Assembly: GCA_025057795.1 (NCBI GenBank)
Contig: JANXEP010000016.1
Span: forward strand, 1 to 12,970
Length of the DNA: 12,970 bases
Source of the DNA: Candidatus Bathyarchaeota archaeon
GTDB lineage: Archaea > Thermoproteota > Bathyarchaeia > Bathyarchaeales > UBA233
Reading direction: 5' to 3'
The translations under genes were made by a program, and so were the position numbers. The notes below the pieces were generated by a model, which saw only the letters and a list, made by a program, of their open reading frames with translations, was not told the origin of the DNA and made no database searches. Positions 2,182-11,663 of this stretch are shown here, piece by piece; the stretch's first letter is position 1; each line of letters opens with the position of its first letter.

Positions 2182-2496
2182 ATGGAAGGATTTGACTCTA
2201 AAGTTCCAGAACTTAAGGTTTTCACTCTGCCAACATGTTCAAGCTGCCACGCTGCCAAGCAGGTCGCCCTTGAAGTTTCTCGAAAACTTGGCTTGGCCTA
2301 CCGAGAAGTGGATATGAACACCAAAGAAGGTCTAGAAGAGGGAACAGCCTACCAAATCATGAGCACTCCGAGCATAACCTTAGGCGATGAGGTCATCGTT
2401 GTGGGGCGTTTAATTTCAAAAGAGAAGCTTGAGGAGGAGGTTTGTAAAAGACTGGCAAAGTGGCGTGCCAGAGCCTTTCAAGTAAAGCCGCCGTAA
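2182..2496 (+). CDS. Thioredoxin/glutaredoxin-like redox protein with CSSC active site
   Basis: This 104-residue thioredoxin-fold protein opens with beta-strand LKVFTLPTC and the dithiol motif C19-S20-S21-C22. The likely cis-proline is P63 (STPSI), followed by the GDEVIVVGR strand turn and a C-terminal helix. This layout matches small archaeal thioredoxin/glutaredoxin-like disulfide reductases that exchange dithiols in the cytoplasm. There is no signal peptide. The charged tail (KRLAKWRARAFQVKPP) extends past the fold. It is the first chromosomal gene beyond the integrated element. The following gene starts 24 nt downstream on the same strand, so the pair may be cotranscribed. The redox partner and substrate cannot be told; CSSC is not the classical thioredoxin CGPC. 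Confidence 0.8.
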   Translation: MEGFDSKVPELKVFTLPTCSSCHAAKQVALEVSRKLGLAYREVDMNTKEGLEEGTAYQIMSTPSITLGDEVIVVGRLISKEKLEEEVCKRLAKWRARAFQVKPP

Positions 2497-2520: not shown

Positions 2521-2889
2521 TTGACGGAGAACGAAATTAAAAGGGCCATTGCGGTGTTCAATTACGCGGAAAAATTCAAAACAGGCCTTATTGTGGCTTC
2601 AAGCCTGCTGGAGCTTTTAGGCGAATTTAGGGAAGAAGCCGAACTGGCTGGCGCGGAGAGACTGCTTATAGCCTACTTTAACGCCATAATTTTGGAAGTT
2701 AACATAGCGGCCAACGCCTCCAAAGTTGAGGGGTTCAGAGAAATAGCCACAAACCTTCAGAAGGCCATTGAATATGTGAAGCAACATAACCCCATGGTTG
2801 CACAAAGGCTTATTTCTGAAGCCATTTCCATAGCGACTACCCATGGAAACTGGGCGGCTCAAATGCTTAAGGAGAAAAACCTAATCTAG
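2521..2889 (+). CDS. Helical protein of unknown function
   Basis: The 122-residue product is almost entirely alpha-helical in character. It has alternating amphipathic stretches such as RAIAVFNYAEKFKTGLIVA and ISEAISIATTHGNWAAQML, and no membrane segments or cysteines. It resembles a four- or five-helix bundle. The frame opens with TTG. A GTG at 2554 is an alternative start, and the nearby ATG at 2516 is in another frame. It lies 24 nt behind the thioredoxin-like gene on the same strand. Its stop overlaps the stop of the convergent glycosylase gene within the palindrome CTAG. I do not recognise the family. It looks like a real, lineage-conserved soluble protein, not a chance frame. Confidence 0.65.
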   Translation: MTENEIKRAIAVFNYAEKFKTGLIVASSLLELLGEFREEAELAGAERLLIAYFNAIILEVNIAANASKVEGFREIATNLQKAIEYVKQHNPMVAQRLISEAISIATTHGNWAAQMLKEKNLI

Positions 2890-3773
2890 ATTCTTCCCGT
2901 CACGACCCGTTCAAAGTGAAAGAGGTACTCTTGAGCATAGCCAGCATATCTTCCAAAATACCTCTGCCCGAAAAGTCTCAGCCTTTCATATTCTGCTTTC
3001 ATCAGCGACTTTTTAAGCGAAATTCTTTTGACAAAACCTTCCTCAAAGTGGTTTGAATAGTGTTTTATGATTACGCGTTTAACCCAAACATCCACCGGGA
3101 AAGCCTCCAGTTTTTCAAGGGAAAAAAGCAAAACACAGTCAGCCACCTTAGGCCCTACACCGGGCAAAGCTAGTAGGGCTTCTCTGGCTTCTTCAAAGTT
3201 TTTAGCCCTCAACTTTTCTATGTCAAACTCGCCGTCTATGAAGCGCTTAGCGGTTTCCGCAACATACTTGGCCCTATAGCCTAAACCACAACTGGCAAGT
3301 TCTTGGACGCTTGCCTTTGCAAGTTTTCGAGCTGTGGGAAAAATGTAGAAAACGCGGTTGTCTAGGAGGGTTTTCTCCCCAAATTTTTTGGAGAGGTTGA
3401 GGAGCATCCGCTTTATTGCGGGTATGTTTTTGTAGGTGGCGCATATGTAGGATATTAGGCACTCCCATGGGTCTTGGCGTAGAATCCTCAACCCTTCTAG
3501 GGCTTTAACGGCCTCCTCCACGTATTTGTCCTTTGATATTTGAGATAGAATTGTTGGCAAATCGTCGTTCAACCCAAAATAATCCCATAAAAAATTGGGA
3601 GCAGCGTTTTCAAACTCAAGCACCCTGCCCGTCTGCCTTACTTTGACAGCCTTATCTTTTAAAACGCCATACCACCATTCGCCTACTTTTTCCCATCTGA
3701 AAGCTTGGCCACAACAAAGGGTTAGCTCCAAATCAAAGGGTTGAGAAGGTTCCAACATTAACCTCATAAACAC
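2886..3773 (-). CDS. ogg: 8-oxoguanine DNA glycosylase, OGG1 type (HhH-GPD)
   Basis: This enzyme removes 8-oxoguanine opposite cytosine and nicks the abasic site by beta-elimination. An OGG-type N-terminal domain spans about residues 5-100 (CCGQAFRW matches the family GQxFRW). The HhH-GPD domain spans about 100-290, with hairpin LPGVGPKVAD (203-212), catalytic lysine K209 and activating aspartate D228 in PVDVWVKR. The 295-residue length fits OGG1-like archaeal enzymes. The segment CATYKNIPAI corresponds to the human CSSNNNIARI loop, so the residues aligned with N149/N150, which contact the orphan cytosine, are Tyr/Lys here. The start is a GTG with GGAGA 7 nt upstream; an in-frame ATG follows at 3767. 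It lies 17 nt downstream of the EF-2-like gene, as the last gene of that operon. Confidence 0.88.
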   Translation of the reverse strand: MFMRLMLEPSQPFDLELTLCCGQAFRWEKVGEWWYGVLKDKAVKVRQTGRVLEFENAAPNFLWDYFGLNDDLPTILSQISKDKYVEEAVKALEGLRILRQDPWECLISYICATYKNIPAIKRMLLNLSKKFGEKTLLDNRVFYIFPTARKLAKASVQELASCGLGYRAKYVAETAKRFIDGEFDIEKLRAKNFEEAREALLALPGVGPKVADCVLLFSLEKLEAFPVDVWVKRVIIKHYSNHFEEGFVKRISLKKSLMKAEYERLRLFGQRYFGRYAGYAQEYLFHFERVVTGRI

Positions 3774-3790
3774 ACACTGTTCTCCATGGG

Positions 3791-5992
3791 CTAGTCTACA
3801 AACTTGCCTAGCGTTGGCATTTCAGGATGTAAACCCTTTCTTTTGCGTACTTGGATAATCACGTTTGCAGAGACGTCTGCAGGAACCCTTTCCCAACGTT
3901 CAAAGGAACATTGCCAAAAAGCATATCCAGAGGTAGCCGAACGCATTTCAGAGGCTAAGCCGAAGGTTTCCGCCACAGGAATGTACCCGGTAATTATCGT
4001 TAAAGCGCCTTTCTGTTCAAAGGAGAATATTTTGCCTCTATGCCTAAGAATTAGGCCAGTGCATTCCCCAACTCGCTGGGCGGGAACAGAAACCACAATC
4101 TTGTAGACAGGCTCCAAAAGCACAGGCTTAGCCGTAAGCAGAGAGCCTATGATTGCACGGCGAATAGTTGGCGCAATCTGAGCTAGCCCCTTGTAAGCTA
4201 GGCCCTCATAATTTTGGGCTTTGACAAGTTTAATTTTTACGCCCCTTAGAGGTTCCTCGCATAAAGGCCCAGCCCTGCAAGCCCAATGGAAACCGGCGAT
4301 AATTGCCTCTCTCGCCTCGTGAAATTGCTGGATTTCTTCTACAAGGTTTATAAGTATGTTTTTGTACTCGTCTATGGCCAAAACTTTTTCAGCTTCTTCG
4401 GCTTGCAAACCAGCCTCTTTAAAGAGGATTTCTCCGGCAAGCTTTGTATCCATTTCGCTGGAGATTACACCTTTTTCGATTAAAGCTAAAGCTTTTTCTT
4501 CTAGAGGTTCTGTTTGCACCCAAAACCTGCTATGCCCATCTGGGCTTTCCGCTGATGCCACGGCTCCTTTTTCGGAAACGCTTTCCCTGTAAACAACCAT
4601 AGGTTTAGGAGTTACAATCTCTACCCCGCTATAGTCCTTGAGGGCTTTTAGGGCGATTTCCAGGTGGAGCTCTCCTAACCCGCTTAAGAGGTATTCGCCT
4701 GTCTCCTTGTTCACTGTAACCACCAAATTTGGGTCTTCGACGGAAACTCTGTTCATGGCTTCGAGGAGAATTGGTAAATCTTCGGGGTTTCTAGGTTCAA
4801 CGGCTATGGTTACAACGGGCTCTGAGACATACCTTATGCGTTCAAAGGGAGCCATGGCTTTTCGGTAAGACGCGTCTACGAGGGTTTCCCCTGCCCAAAC
4901 ACCCTCCAATCCTGAAACGGCAGTGATGTTTCCAGCGCTTATTTTTTCAACGTTTTCTCTGAAAACTCCCATATACATGAAAACGTGTTTAATAATGCAG
5001 TCTTTCTTTGCACCCACCAGATAAACGTGGTCTTCTGGCTTAACAGAGCCTGAGAAAAGCCTTCCAGTGGCAACCGGCCCCTCCTTGGGATCCATCTGAA
5101 CCATGGTTATGCACATGACAGTGGGCCCATCATCGTTGCAGTTCAGCATAGCCCTGCCGACTTCGCTGTTTATATCTCCCTTCCATATTTTTGGCAGTCT
5201 ATACTTTTGGGCTTCGGCAGGGCTTGGAATGTTATTAACTACCATGTCCATTATCGCGTTGTGAAGGGGAATAAGTCTTTCAAGGCTTTGATAGTTGCCT
5301 TCAGCATATGCTTCAATAACTTCTTTGATTTTTAATCCTTTTTCTTGGGCTATTTTTAGGGTGAAGCCCCATTTGTGGAGGGCTGAGCCAAAAGCCACTG
5401 TTTCATTTTGCGGGCTAACTTTCCACTGTTCTTTGAACTCTGGCTCGCCGTAAATCTCAATTAAATTGTTAAAGTCGCGTACTATGCGTTCCAGCTTGCC
5501 TTGAATCTCGTTGGGGGTTAGCCTCAACTCTCTTATCAACCTGTCAACCTTGTTTATGAAGAGGACTGGCCGAACCCTTTCCTCCAAGGCTTGTCTGGTT
5601 ACGGTTTCCGTCTGAGCCATAACCTCCTCAACGGCGTCTACAACAACCACGGCACCGTCTATAGCCCTTAAAGCCCTGGTAACTTTGCCTGTGAAATCCA
5701 CGTGTCCAGGCGTATCCACCAAGTTTATCACATAGGGGCGGCCATCAACTTCGTGCAAAAGGGATATGTTTGCGGTTTTAATGGTGATTCCCCTTTTTTG
5801 CTCCTCTTCCAGATAGTCGAGGACTCGGGCTTCGCCGGCTATTTTGGGCGAAATTAGTCCAGCCTCGGCTAATAGGGAGTCCGTCATGGTGGTTTTTCCA
5901 TGGTCTATGTGGGCTATTACGCCAATGTTGCGGATACACTCCTTTTTATGCATTAATCTGAGAATTTCAGCGGTTTGCCTAAACCTGTGCAA
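3791..5992 (-). CDS. Elongation factor 2-like GTPase, divergent paralog without the diphthamide histidine
   Basis: EF-2 drives GTP-dependent ribosomal translocation. All GTPase motifs are present: P-loop AHIDHGKTT (27-35), switch RGITIKT, DTPGHVDF, NKVDR and the GSAL box, followed by domains II to V. The 733-residue length is that of archaeal EF-2. Domain IV is abnormal at both functional tip loops. The family motif D-A-I-H-R-G-x-x-Q, whose His carries diphthamide, reads LAYKGLAQI (Tyr at 600, Lys at 601), and the partner loop SPNKHNR reads SPDGHSR (483-489). This matches the EF-2 paralogs reported from archaea without diphthamide synthesis, so its role may be an altered or non-canonical translocase. 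I cannot tell whether a normal EF-2 exists elsewhere. The start is taken as TTG because RFRQTAEILRLMHKKECIRN aligns with EF-2 N-termini; GGAG lies 11 nt upstream. ATG at 5953 is the alternative. It is the middle gene of a three-gene operon. Confidence 0.9.
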   Translation of the reverse strand: MHRFRQTAEILRLMHKKECIRNIGVIAHIDHGKTTMTDSLLAEAGLISPKIAGEARVLDYLEEEQKRGITIKTANISLLHEVDGRPYVINLVDTPGHVDFTGKVTRALRAIDGAVVVVDAVEEVMAQTETVTRQALEERVRPVLFINKVDRLIRELRLTPNEIQGKLERIVRDFNNLIEIYGEPEFKEQWKVSPQNETVAFGSALHKWGFTLKIAQEKGLKIKEVIEAYAEGNYQSLERLIPLHNAIMDMVVNNIPSPAEAQKYRLPKIWKGDINSEVGRAMLNCNDDGPTVMCITMVQMDPKEGPVATGRLFSGSVKPEDHVYLVGAKKDCIIKHVFMYMGVFRENVEKISAGNITAVSGLEGVWAGETLVDASYRKAMAPFERIRYVSEPVVTIAVEPRNPEDLPILLEAMNRVSVEDPNLVVTVNKETGEYLLSGLGELHLEIALKALKDYSGVEIVTPKPMVVYRESVSEKGAVASAESPDGHSRFWVQTEPLEEKALALIEKGVISSEMDTKLAGEILFKEAGLQAEEAEKVLAIDEYKNILINLVEEIQQFHEAREAIIAGFHWACRAGPLCEEPLRGVKIKLVKAQNYEGLAYKGLAQIAPTIRRAIIGSLLTAKPVLLEPVYKIVVSVPAQRVGECTGLILRHRGKIFSFEQKGALTIITGYIPVAETFGLASEMRSATSGYAFWQCSFERWERVPADVSANVIIQVRKRKGLHPEMPTLGKFVD

Positions 5993-6025
5993 GGGTGAAA
6001 ATTCTCCACGTGTTACCTTTGCTGA

Positions 6026-6526
6026 TTAAACCAGCTCAATTATTTTTGCTTCAAGTTTTTCCGTGTCTAAAAGGGCTATTGTTGACTTTCCAGTTATGTA
6101 ACCGCAAACCTCTCCAGGGTTAACCACCAACGTTTTTCCCTCTTTGCGGTTTTCCGCCCTGTGCGTATGCCCATAGGCAACTATGGAGAAGTTTTGGCTG
6201 TTTATCAAAGCCTTCAAAAGTTCTTCCTCATGTCCATGCAGCAGGGCAATTTTAACGTTGTCTACGCGTAGCTCTGCAAAGTTTCCGCGTAGCTCCATGC
6301 CGTCACGCTCGCTGAACCTTTTCTTTAAAAGCTCGCGGTCACCGTCGTTGTTACCGAAGACTCCTACAAGTTTCGCTCTCAGCTCCTTAAACCTTGTAAC
6401 CACAAAGGGCGCCACATAGTCTCCGGCATGAAGTACAAGTTCAACCCTTTCCTCGTTGAACTTTTTAATGGCTTTCTCTACCATGGGCAAACGATCATGA
6501 GTATCCGCCATCAACCCAATCCACAT
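6026..6526 (-). CDS. YfcE/MJ0936-type metallophosphodiesterase
   Basis: This 166-residue calcineurin-like phosphoesterase (Metallophos_2) hydrolyses phosphodiester bonds using two divalent metals. The complete metal-ligand set is present: D8 and H10 (ADTHD), D36 (HAGD), N59 (FGNND), H97 (LLHGH), and H120 and H122 (YGHTH). Length and motif spacing fit the archaeal MJ0936 subgroup. There is no signal peptide, so it is cytoplasmic. The physiological substrate of this subgroup is unsettled. AGGTGA (complement of 6531-6536) lies 4 nt upstream of the ATG. It is the first gene of the operon; the EF-2-like gene begins 33 nt downstream. Confidence 0.9.
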   Translation of the reverse strand: MWIGLMADTHDRLPMVEKAIKKFNEERVELVLHAGDYVAPFVVTRFKELRAKLVGVFGNNDGDRELLKKRFSERDGMELRGNFAELRVDNVKIALLHGHEEELLKALINSQNFSIVAYGHTHRAENRKEGKTLVVNPGEVCGYITGKSTIALLDTEKLEAKIIELV

Positions 6527-6560
6527 TTTCTCACCTAATCTCCAATGTTACACCCTTAAA

Positions 6561-6570
6561 GAAATTTATT
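6561..6570 (-). promoter_or_regulatory. TATA-like box of the phosphodiesterase / EF-2-like / ogg operon
   Basis: On the complement an AATAAATTTC box is centred about 40 nt upstream of the phosphodiesterase ATG. A start site about 26 nt further on would leave a leader of roughly 14 nt containing the AGGTGA Shine-Dalgarno motif. It is the only promoter-like signal seen before this three-gene minus-strand cluster. Confidence 0.4.
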
Positions 6571-6685
6571 TCCTTTCAGAGTAAAGTGAAAATTATTCTA
6601 GAAAATATTCCGAGAACTGAAATAGTTAGGTTGGGGAAACACGGTTTAATAGCTCACCACCCTTTTACTCATAAAGCGTTGAGAG

Positions 6686-7036
6686 ATGAACACTTTGGAG
6701 ACGGATGCTTGGTTTTCTAATGTTCCGCAGAAAAGAAGAGACAAGCTATACATAATTGCTGAAATTCTTGAAATAGCCAAGGACAAAGCCTTAAAAACCC
6801 AAATAATGTATAGGGCAAATTTAAGCTTCACCCAACTCAACGACTATCTTAATTTTATGTTAAAAACCAAATTTTTAGAAAGATTCGTTGAAAACGGAAA
6901 GGAGTTTTACAAGCCGACAAAAAAGGGTTTAAATTTCCTCCAACGCTACCGGGAATTAACAGACCTTCTCAGTAGTGAAGATGAAGGAAACAGTATTAAA
7001 ATTTCTTCCCATCATCTGATCAAAAAGACTAATTGA
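6686..7036 (+). CDS. Archaeal winged-helix transcriptional regulator (HTH_45-like)
   Basis: This 116-residue regulator has a single winged helix over about residues 15-92. KRRDKLYIIAEILEIAKDKALK forms the first helices, TQIMYRANLSFTQLNDYLN contains the recognition helix, LKTKFLERFVEN leads to the wing, and KEFYKPTKKGLNFLQRY is the wing strand and last helix. This is the common archaeal HTH_45 / PadR-like small-regulator pattern, with the family GLxFL signature. It probably binds DNA as a dimer. The first residues and the tail (SSEDEGNSIKISSHH) are polar and unstructured. A TATA-like TTTAATA at about 6645 precedes it. It is transcribed divergently from the phosphodiesterase operon and convergently with the surface-protein gene. 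The target is not known. Confidence 0.8.
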   Translation: MNTLETDAWFSNVPQKRRDKLYIIAEILEIAKDKALKTQIMYRANLSFTQLNDYLNFMLKTKFLERFVENGKEFYKPTKKGLNFLQRYRELTDLLSSEDEGNSIKISSHHLIKKTN

Positions 7037-9201: not shown

Positions 9202-10032
9202 TTAGGTAAACTTCCCAAGTATGAAAAGTACCGCCATGTTTAGGTATATAGCTGTTAGGCTTAGGAGTATACCCTTATCAAGCCTTAAGCCTTTCCCATG
9301 GCAGAAAGCCGCCGAAACAAGCAGCAAACTCCAAATCTGCAGTATAACTAGTATGCCTTGCCTTACCGTCTCCGGGTTTAGCGCGTATAAGCCCAAAGCC
9401 TCTAGAATTGTTGGAACAGCCATGTGTATATATGGAAAAGCTGCCAAGGGTGCTGCCGCCAGCCCTATACATGTAAAAAGTTGAAGGTCATTTCCAACCC
9501 GTTTAAACAACATATATGCAAGGGTTTCTGCGAAGAGAAATAAACCCGCCCAGTTGAATATGAATAACACTGCCAAACTTGAAGGGTTACTGGTGGGATG
9601 GGGAAAATAGAAGAATAGAGCCGGCTCAAGCCTCGCGAGAGAGACGCCAAAGGCGCCTAAAATCAAAACAGCAGCAGAGATCGGTATAAACCTTAAAGGT
9701 TTAGAGGTCAAGGCAAACAAAGGCGATAAGAAAATCCATCTTACAAAACGGTGGCTGAAACTTTCGCTTATTCCAAGGCTAGCTGGAACCGCTCCCTCCT
9801 TCAAAACCCTGTAAAGCATCCGCCCCTTATCATTTAGCCTATACTTGCGCTGCTTGTCCTGTTCAAGGAAGTCTGAAAGCATGTCTAAGTGATAATAAAC
9901 AGTGCCGACGCCTAAGCCTAAGGCTTCCCGAAGCTCCCTAAAGCCAATTTTCCCCTGCGTGCCTAAAATTTCAATTATTTTTCGCCGCGTCGGATCTTTA
10001 AGAAGCGCATAATACCGAGACAATTCTTCCAT
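9202..10032 (-). CDS. Membrane-bound ArsR-like winged-helix regulator
   Basis: This 276-residue protein joins an N-terminal winged helix (about 1-80) to a membrane domain. The DNA-binding part begins LSRYYALLKDPTRRKIIEIL, with recognition helix GVGTVYYHLDML and a wing around KQRKYRLNDKGRMLY, as in ArsR/HTH_20 regulators. The rest holds about five hydrophobic helices (near 113-132, 150-175, 183-206, 225-245 and 253-272), with no sensor or enzyme motif visible. Such one-component regulators bind DNA while anchored in the membrane and may sense envelope state. GAGG lies 4 nt before the ATG. A TATA-like CATAAATAC (complement of about 10060-10068) lies upstream. It shares its upstream region with the glycosyltransferase gene, transcribed the other way, which is a plausible target. 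Confidence 0.8.
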   Translation of the reverse strand: MEELSRYYALLKDPTRRKIIEILGTQGKIGFRELREALGLGVGTVYYHLDMLSDFLEQDKQRKYRLNDKGRMLYRVLKEGAVPASLGISESFSHRFVRWIFLSPLFALTSKPLRFIPISAAVLILGAFGVSLARLEPALFFYFPHPTSNPSSLAVLFIFNWAGLFLFAETLAYMLFKRVGNDLQLFTCIGLAAAPLAAFPYIHMAVPTILEALGLYALNPETVRQGILVILQIWSLLLVSAAFCHGKGLRLDKGILLSLTAIYLNMAVLFILGKFT

Positions 10033-10252: not shown

Positions 10253-11080
10253 ATGCCACAAAAAGCTTCGAAAAAGAGTTCAAGATTAGTGTATTTGTTA
10301 TTTGCCTTGCCAATTTTTCTAGCATTTTTATGCTGGTTACATTTTCCTGCCCTAGCCTACGCTATTTCTGTTTATGTTTTTGGCTACGTTCCCAACGTTC
10401 AGCCGACCCATTGGCTTTGGCACTGCACCCTCTACGCGTTCTTCACCTTGTACACTTTTTTGGCAATAGGAGTTGGCGGCATGAGGGTTGTCGCCGCTTG
10501 GATTTACAGGAGAAGGAAACATGTAGGTGATAACACCCGCTACCCATCAGTTAGTTTTGTGGTGCCCGCATACAACGAGGAAAAGCGAATTTCAAGGTGC
10601 ATAACAAGCCTTTTCGCCAACGCATCAAACTACCCAGGTTTCTGCGAAATTATAGTCATTGACGATGGAAGTGATGACTACACATATGAGATTGCGTGGG
10701 CGGCTATTCAAAAATGCCGGAGACGTTGGCCCAACATTAGATGCAAAGTTGTTAGGCACTGCGCGAACCTCGGCAAGGCTGAAGCCCTTAGAACGGGAGT
10801 AAACAAGGCGCAGGGTGAACTGATAGCCATGGTGGACGCTGACACGTGGTGGGAGCCAAACGCTTTGAAAGAGCTTGTTGAAACCGCTGAAGGAGTTGGC
10901 TACTACGCCCTAAGCGGTTACATCCATCCTACAGACGAAGAAGACGAAAGAAAGCTCTACATAGCCCTTCAACAGCTTGAGTACAGCCATGGACTAGGAA
11001 TAGACAGGAGCGCTCAAGCCCTGGGAAACTCCATTGTTGTTGTCCCTGGACCCATGGGCTTGTACCGGGCGGGCGCTTAG
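10253..11080 (+). CDS. Membrane glycosyltransferase family 2, N-terminal part (frameshifted gene)
   Basis: This is the first part of a processive-type GT2 enzyme that would polymerise or transfer sugars at the membrane. Two N-terminal membrane helices (about 12-46 and 58-83) precede the GT-A domain. That domain shows SFVVPAYNEEKRI, the nucleotide-binding IIVIDDGSDD, ANLGKAEALRTGV and the metal-binding DADT. The frame ends early at TAG 11078-11080, just after PGPMGLYRAGA, in the middle of the catalytic domain. The missing second half lies directly downstream in the +1 frame. Removing one G from the run at 11067-11069 gives YRRALREIL, the usual YRxxAL-type continuation, and restores one frame of about 470 codons (10253-11663). 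The acceptor and product (an exopolysaccharide or glycolipid) cannot be told. No strong Shine-Dalgarno motif is seen. Confidence 0.8.
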   Translation: MPQKASKKSSRLVYLLFALPIFLAFLCWLHFPALAYAISVYVFGYVPNVQPTHWLWHCTLYAFFTLYTFLAIGVGGMRVVAAWIYRRRKHVGDNTRYPSVSFVVPAYNEEKRISRCITSLFANASNYPGFCEIIVIDDGSDDYTYEIAWAAIQKCRRRWPNIRCKVVRHCANLGKAEALRTGVNKAQGELIAMVDADTWWEPNALKELVETAEGVGYYALSGYIHPTDEEDERKLYIALQQLEYSHGLGIDRSAQALGNSIVVVPGPMGLYRAGA

Positions 11081-11663
11081 AGAAATATTAAACGTAAAAA
11101 CCGTCAAGTCTGTGGCTGAAGACATGGAAATAACTTTGGAGATGCACAAGAAAAATTTACCCATTGGGTATACGGAAAAGGCTAGAAGTGTAACTGTGGC
11201 GCCAAAAACGTTCAGGGCTTTCTGGAACCAGCGGCTGCGGTGGTTCATAGGAGGCATCCACAACATGCTATCTATCCACAGGGATCTGCTTTTCAAAAAG
11301 CGTTTTCTAAGCTTATTTCTCTGGGATGCTTTGATTCTGGGCTATGGGTGCAGCCTATTAGAAGTCATGGCCATGCTAAGCCTTCCCATCTTCCTATGGT
11401 TTGCGCCAGACAAGATATTTTTCCTTATAAATTTGTTAATTTATGCCACTTTGGCTTTTCTTGTCGGAGTAATTTATCATGCTATAGCCCTAAAATTTTC
11501 CTATGGTCAATACAACCATAAACGTCTTCTCATTTATACTCCACTGTACTCAGCATTGAGAATGATTAACGTGTTTGCAAGGCTTAGGAGCCTTATAAAA
11601 TTTTTAATGGGTGATAAGGGTTGCTGGCGAAAGAACCAGAAATGTGAAAAAGATATTGGCTAA
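11034..11663 (+). CDS. Membrane glycosyltransferase family 2, C-terminal part (frameshifted gene)
   Basis: This is the second half of the GT2 gene. The ATG at 11034 is only the first one in this frame; residues up to about 12 overlap the first part out of frame, and true coding begins near 11070. It holds the rest of the catalytic domain: the acidic catalytic-base motif AEDMEITLEMHKK, then QRLRWFIGG, the Q-x-x-R-W motif of chitin-, hyaluronan- and cellulose-synthase-like enzymes. Three to four membrane helices follow (about residues 92-126, 131-160). The C-terminus is basic. As a separate protein it would lack the donor-binding half and be inactive. Confidence 0.75.
   Translation: MLLSLDPWACTGRALREILNVKTVKSVAEDMEITLEMHKKNLPIGYTEKARSVTVAPKTFRAFWNQRLRWFIGGIHNMLSIHRDLLFKKRFLSLFLWDALILGYGCSLLEVMAMLSLPIFLWFAPDKIFFLINLLIYATLAFLVGVIYHAIALKFSYGQYNHKRLLIYTPLYSALRMINVFARLRSLIKFLMGDKGCWRKNQKCEKDIG

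Follow-up and report, generated by a model that had tools for sequence, protein, structure and literature searches.

An EF-2 with tyrosine at the diphthamide position from Bathyarchaeia, a class in which a second, histidine-bearing EF-2 is common

The window, i.e., the whole stretch of 12,970 nucleotides analysed here, carries an EF-2 gene on its reverse strand. This gene is called copy A below, and the second EF-2 found in related genomes is called copy B. The EF-2 gene, its landmarks and the genes around it are:

2182..2496, forward strand: glutaredoxin/thioredoxin-like gene of the A locus (domain and synteny)
2521..2889, forward strand: conserved hypothetical gene of the A locus (synteny)
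2886..3773, reverse strand: ogg, 8-oxoguanine DNA glycosylase, conserved downstream neighbour of copy A (family and synteny)
3791..5992, reverse strand: EF-2 copy A, the native bathyarchaeal EF-2, 733 aa, TTG start (EF-2 domains)
4178..4213, reverse strand: domain-IV tip loop, residues 594-605, NYEGLAYKGLAQ replacing LHEDPVHRGPAQ (alignment and model)
4193..4195, reverse strand: Tyr600 codon TAC (GTA on the forward strand) at the diphthamide-His position (direct read; alignment to solved EF-2s)
4526..4546, reverse strand: second domain-IV tip loop, residues 483-489, SPDGHSR replacing SPNKHNR (alignment and model)
5693..5716, reverse strand: GTPase motif G3, DTPGHVDF, residues 93-100, intact
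5888..5914, reverse strand: GTPase motif G1, AHIDHGKTT, residues 27-35, intact
6026..6526, reverse strand: yfcE, YfcE-type phosphodiesterase, occupying the spot of the divergent EF-2 copy B in relatives (family)

The order glutaredoxin-like gene, hypothetical gene, ogg and EF-2 A is common to the window and five related genomes (G001, G002, G124, G125, and G160), in which B is divergent and lies immediately upstream of A. In five others (G126, G149, G120, G079, and G139) the A-ogg pair is present and B does not adjoin it. The upstream spot held by B in the first five relatives is filled in the window by yfcE, and no B remnant was detected in the window, where the search returned only the self-match of EF-2 A and hits at E 1.7 or worse. 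Since the A-ogg locus is kept and yfcE stands in the place of B, the window gene is in its native position, and B has either moved or been lost. The yfcE, EF-2 A and ogg genes (2886-6526, reverse strand) are co-oriented and closely spaced (33 and 17 bases apart), an operon-like arrangement unlike that in the five relatives, where EF-2 A shares a divergent intergenic region with B. A promoter scan of 5950-6700 gave two promoter-like sites vs. 1.0 expected from shuffles, with sigma-70 patterns that are unfit for archaea, and no terminator. An archaeal phage-type integrase gene (PF16795; 1140-2069, reverse strand) lies next to the glutaredoxin-like gene, with which the A locus ends, and a hypothetical gene (622-1143) overlaps the end of the integrase gene. 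A family-2 glycosyltransferase gene (10253-11663, forward strand) consists of two overlapping frames, 10253-11080 (PF00535) and 11034-11663 (PF13632), and looks as if it had been broken by a frameshift. No tandem repeats or tRNAs were found in the window.

The window protein resembles canonical archaeal EF-2 in domain architecture, in its GTPase motifs, and in its match to the aEF-2 model TIGR00490 (836.9 bits; curated cut-off 738.45). Motifs G1-G5 were all read as intact, in agreement with the initial annotation. Its nearest named relatives, among the matches listed, are annotated as Candidatus Bathyarchaeia. The gene is bathyarchaeal and is the native copy A. Unlike canonical archaeal EF-2, the protein has Tyr in place of the diphthamide His, and its H-x-D-x-x-H-R-G and SPNKHN loops are altered. 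The HxDxxHRG loop thus contains no diphthamide-accepting His, and this loss is the defining feature of a His-less archaeal EF-2 paralogue. Tyr600, which the initial annotation had placed at the diphthamide position, aligns with the His of HRG in three solved archaeal EF-2s (8hl1, 5h7j, and 6u45).

The homologue set comprised 120 sequences listed of 8000 found. Residue 600 in the window and the 119 other homologues is H in 113, Y in five, Q in one and L in one; among these matches listed, Tyr occurs in the window, P0002, P0003, P0101, and P0111, Gln in P0046, and Leu in P0116. The window was read from a single contig, which would leave room for a sequencing or assembly error at Tyr600. P0002 and P0003, which are separate records 82 and 78% identical to the window protein, also have Tyr at this position together with further tip changes. 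Because these two records share the Tyr, we rejected an error as its source, and the chance of one is negligible.

The initial annotation was right that the context of Tyr600 is altered. The bathyarchaeal tip consensus, however, is HEDPVHRGPAQ and not D-A-I-H-R-G as given there, and the changes are more numerous than it listed: H595Y, D597G, P598L, V599A, H600Y, R601K, and P603L. Likewise, its statement that both tip loops have changed holds for the window, where the changes in the 483-489 loop include N485D and K486G, but not for the closest relatives, in which this loop is near canonical (SPNRHNR in P0002 and SPNKHNK in P0003). The loss common to the whole clade is therefore that of the His only.

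Conservation was scored against 51 single-copy bathyarchaeal EF-2s, at the positions where these agree to 90% or more. The window protein retains 94% of such positions in domain I, 73% in domain II, 82% in domain III, and 85% in domain V; in domain IV it retains 53% at the two tips and 69% outside them. P0002 and P0003 both keep 69% in the tips, with 67 and 60% in the rest of domain IV and 76 and 64% in domain II, respectively. As the tips of these two relatives are no worse than the rest of their domain IV or, in P0003, than domain II, sharp tip erosion is limited to the window and to more eroded copies. His-less A rows as a group keep 42% in the tips and 83% in domain I. The 77 B rows show the reverse pattern, with 79% kept in the tips and 54–68% elsewhere. 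We propose that the window copy A stands at an early to middle stage, with the His lost, the tip about half eroded, and the GTPase domain near canonical.

An AlphaFold2 model of the window EF-2 A (mean pLDDT 80.9, pTM 0.69; low confidence at residues 29-33, 55-73, and 96-100, around the GTPase P-loop and switches) shows both tips still as loops within the domain-IV fold. Residues 594-602 form a loop with strand 585-593 before it and helix 603-620 after it, and the 483-489 loop lies between strands 479-482 and 489-496. The best PDB fold matches are archaeal EF-2s at 41–48% identity, including the Methanoperedens EF-2 H595N.

To place the gene in its class, we surveyed 256 class genomes that had been accessed by way of relatives. 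EF-2 was found at E ≤ 1e-60 in 229 of them; the 27 genomes with no EF-2 at this threshold serve as a yardstick for missing genes. With the second copy of G002 as query, B came out as a clean orthologue set in 80 of the 256 genomes (71–100% identity, next matches at 53%). An 81st carrier is G093, whose B is split over two pieces at contig ends. B is ∼46% identical to A, and its tip reads HEDPVHRG in all 77 copies read. In G002, A has the Tyr and adjoins a His-bearing B. For P0101 (Tyr) and P0046 (Gln), a listed B has a longest contig of the same size (30913 and 14070, respectively), which is a size match and not a direct read. As a control outside the class, 61 genomes drawn evenly from the phylum were examined; each had one EF-2, except the class members G002 and G180. 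In G115 (L327), a 100-aa EF-2 fragment (9606-9905, forward strand), 67–73% identical to B, lies divergent to an intact B.

Copy-A tips were read in 156 rows, with two rows each for G006 and G193 and with many more distant single-copy genomes left out. When G093 is counted as a B carrier, A beside B has the His in 13 rows and lacks it in 49 (62 rows), and A without a detected B has it in 83 and lacks it in 11 (94 rows). In two of the 13 (G129 and G155) the His is assigned by alignment and the loop is otherwise eroded. Bathyarchaeia often have copy A beside a His-bearing B, and B is present in the genome-resolved rows closest to the window; both points support the suggestion in the initial annotation that the gene is a paralogue of the His-less kind.

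In an IQ-TREE tree of 69 chosen rows, from which the tip columns were excluded, the window groups with P0002 and P0003 (SH-aLRT 100). This clade is joined by G160, G125, and G126 (96), then by G002 (96), and then by G124 and G130 (99), six genomes that all have B. The second His-bearing EF-2 that the initial annotation proposed to look for was accordingly found in relatives, namely in these six genome-resolved rows; on the window contig itself there is neither B nor any other second canonical EF-2. A FastTree tree of 263 rows grouped the window, P0002, P0003, G125, and P0116 at 0.976, with G160 next at 0.764. Many further single-copy rows, most of which lack B, branch next to G002 and G130 in that tree and so nest within the larger assemblage of B carriers. 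Given these B-less rows, B carriers securely flank the window only as far out as G125 and G160, and beyond that level the bracketing is tree-dependent. As B was not seen on the window contig, we infer from the relatives that the source organism has B. Both trees were built without named Asgard or Korarchaeota sequences.

Parsimony on 162 A rows requires six changes of the His state. An independent-pairs test of B against His loss was not significant, with few informative pairs, as B is largely one gain. The B copies group together (SH-aLRT 100) and fall outside the bathyarchaeal A copies, on a stem so long (1.12) that long-branch error is possible. B may have arisen by transfer or by an old duplication, two origins that the 69-row tree does not tell apart.

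The window lineage could instead have lost B, so that the Tyr EF-2 is its sole translocase and diphthamide has been given up. The yfcE gene in the place of B, with no B remnant, would fit such a loss, as would the 120 B matches listed, none of which is on a contig of the size of the 206,624-base contig of P0003, and the eleven genomes with a His-less A and no detected B. B sits away from A in other two-copy genomes, however (e.g., G126), and for some of the eleven the neighbourhood of B is missing from the assembly. B adjoins rpS19 and argS (arginyl-tRNA synthetase) in G168-G170 and G173. Of the six A-only genomes of the subclade of these four, argS is missing in G172, G175, G176, and G177 and is cut by a contig end in G171, so in these five the expected place of B is not in the assembly; G167 has argS, with rpS19 not on the stretch examined. 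The B carriers G178-G180 have argS and rpS19 with no B alongside in the stretch examined, and absence of B can thus not be called from that neighbourhood. The other six genomes with a His-less A and no detected B (G085, G089, G111, G112, G154, and G167) have no such explanation. With the B neighbourhood missing or cut in five of the eleven genomes, we do not regard the occurrence of a His-less A in genomes devoid of B as established, and no proven sole His-less EF-2 was found in this survey.

The diphthamide pathway also argues against a loss of B with diphthamide given up. Dph1/2 was found in 230 of the 256 class genomes, including the B-less His-less G175 and G177. Dph5 and the Dph6 family, which has paralogues, were looked for in 64 selected genomes, including 60 B carriers, and each was found in 63, with Dph5 missing in G096 and Dph6 in G178. 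G002, with its Tyr copy A, has Dph1/2, Dph5, and Dph6. These counts refer to relatives of the window organism, and in them the dph genes are not lacking; loss of dph as the cause of the His loss is thus rejected for the relatives. The initial annotation had offered a sole EF-2 in a lineage that dropped diphthamide and had pointed to dph1/2, dph5 and dph6 as the genes to look for. In the relatives these genes are kept and every one of the 77 B tips read shows the full motif, which speaks against that proposal, and we regard a Tyr EF-2 as the sole translocase of the window lineage as improbable. With a second, His-bearing EF-2 in related genomes, the most likely view of the window EF-2 A is that of a spare copy taking on a new use, not that of the sole motor of a diphthamide-less cell. 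In seven genomes (G168, G169, G170, G171, G172, G173, and G175; e.g., G171 contig C45, L335), a Dph6-family gene lies 1.2–1.4 kb from a His-less A that is no longer modifiable.

A spare copy might also be a decaying one, redundant beside B, heading for loss and with no function of its own. Of the 80 genomes of the B orthologue set, 14 yielded no copy A, partly clade by clade, and a few A genes are broken into different frames or contain an internal stop. In one B subclade A is absent from six of seven genomes, so B seems able to serve as the only EF-2. Clusters of B carriers without A (G131, G132, G142, G143, G146, and G078; G178 and G179) suggest that the native EF-2 has been fully replaced by B in them. 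Selection was estimated as dN/dS (Nei-Gojobori, whole gene) in pairs of related genomes. The ratio was 0.09–0.19 in seven His-less A pairs (an eighth, G134/G135, was saturated), 0.18 in the mixed pair G155/G156, 0.01–0.12 in seven intact A pairs, and 0.01–0.09 in six B pairs. A thus evolves faster than B, as a decaying copy would, but the values for the His-less pairs are far under 1. The His-less copies have full-length frames, with G3 intact in all 66 rows and G1 canonical in 63, and the domain I of the window protein is kept as described above. Switch I (RGIT) has G replaced by K in 35 of the 66 rows and not in the window. Decay towards loss is on this evidence an unlikely account of copy A.

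We consider it probable that the window gene is the vertically inherited EF-2 A of a lineage that has or had B, and that A is a constrained GTPase released from diphthamide-dependent translocation. B would have become the diphthamide-modified translocase, and A, no longer needing a diphthamide tip of its own, would then have been freed from holding codon-anticodon pairs with it. A may persist as a GTPase that binds the ribosome and whose domain IV carries no diphthamide, acting as a second, laxer translocase under some conditions or as a factor for another ribosomal step; that it now acts as a GTPase on the ribosome, its tip unmodified, is a guess. As a more tentative proposal for the class, which may well prove wrong, the two copies would form a system in which diphthamide-dependent translocation passed to B, leaving A as a ribosomal GTPase that does a job of its own without diphthamide, its tip lost several times and its G domain under purifying selection. 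The EF-G1/EF-G2 pairs of bacteria and mitochondria are likewise duplicated translocase GTPases with divided work, in a different lineage; the recycling partner RRF is not known from archaea.

Many archaea that lack dph genes are reported to have a second EF-2 without the key diphthamide residues (passage in PMC10307638, citing Narrowe et al., 2018). Copy A resembles those proteins, as that passage describes them, in being an EF-2 without diphthamide residues beside another EF-2. It differs in that dph is absent there, whereas the bathyarchaeal relatives keep Dph1/2, Dph5, and Dph6 and their other copy has the full motif. His-less paralogues themselves are already known; new here is a His-less archaeal EF-2 paralogue where relatives keep the diphthamide pathway. 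We found no description of bathyarchaeal EF-2 pairs in the open-licence literature searched, and they may have been noticed earlier. In yeast, diphthamide has been tied to translational accuracy (PMC6193676).

One class of archaea thus offers A alone, A and B both with the His, B with a His-less A, and B alone, with the diphthamide enzymes kept. Diphthamide is regarded as almost universal among archaea and eukaryotes, and the need for it is hard to test. This natural series lets one ask what the modified tip does and what EF-2 does without it. EF-2 is also a common phylogenetic marker, and in Bathyarchaeia it comprises two deeply split copies, which is a warning for its use in phylogenetics. 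A His-less EF-2 should not be taken as loss of the diphthamide pathway.
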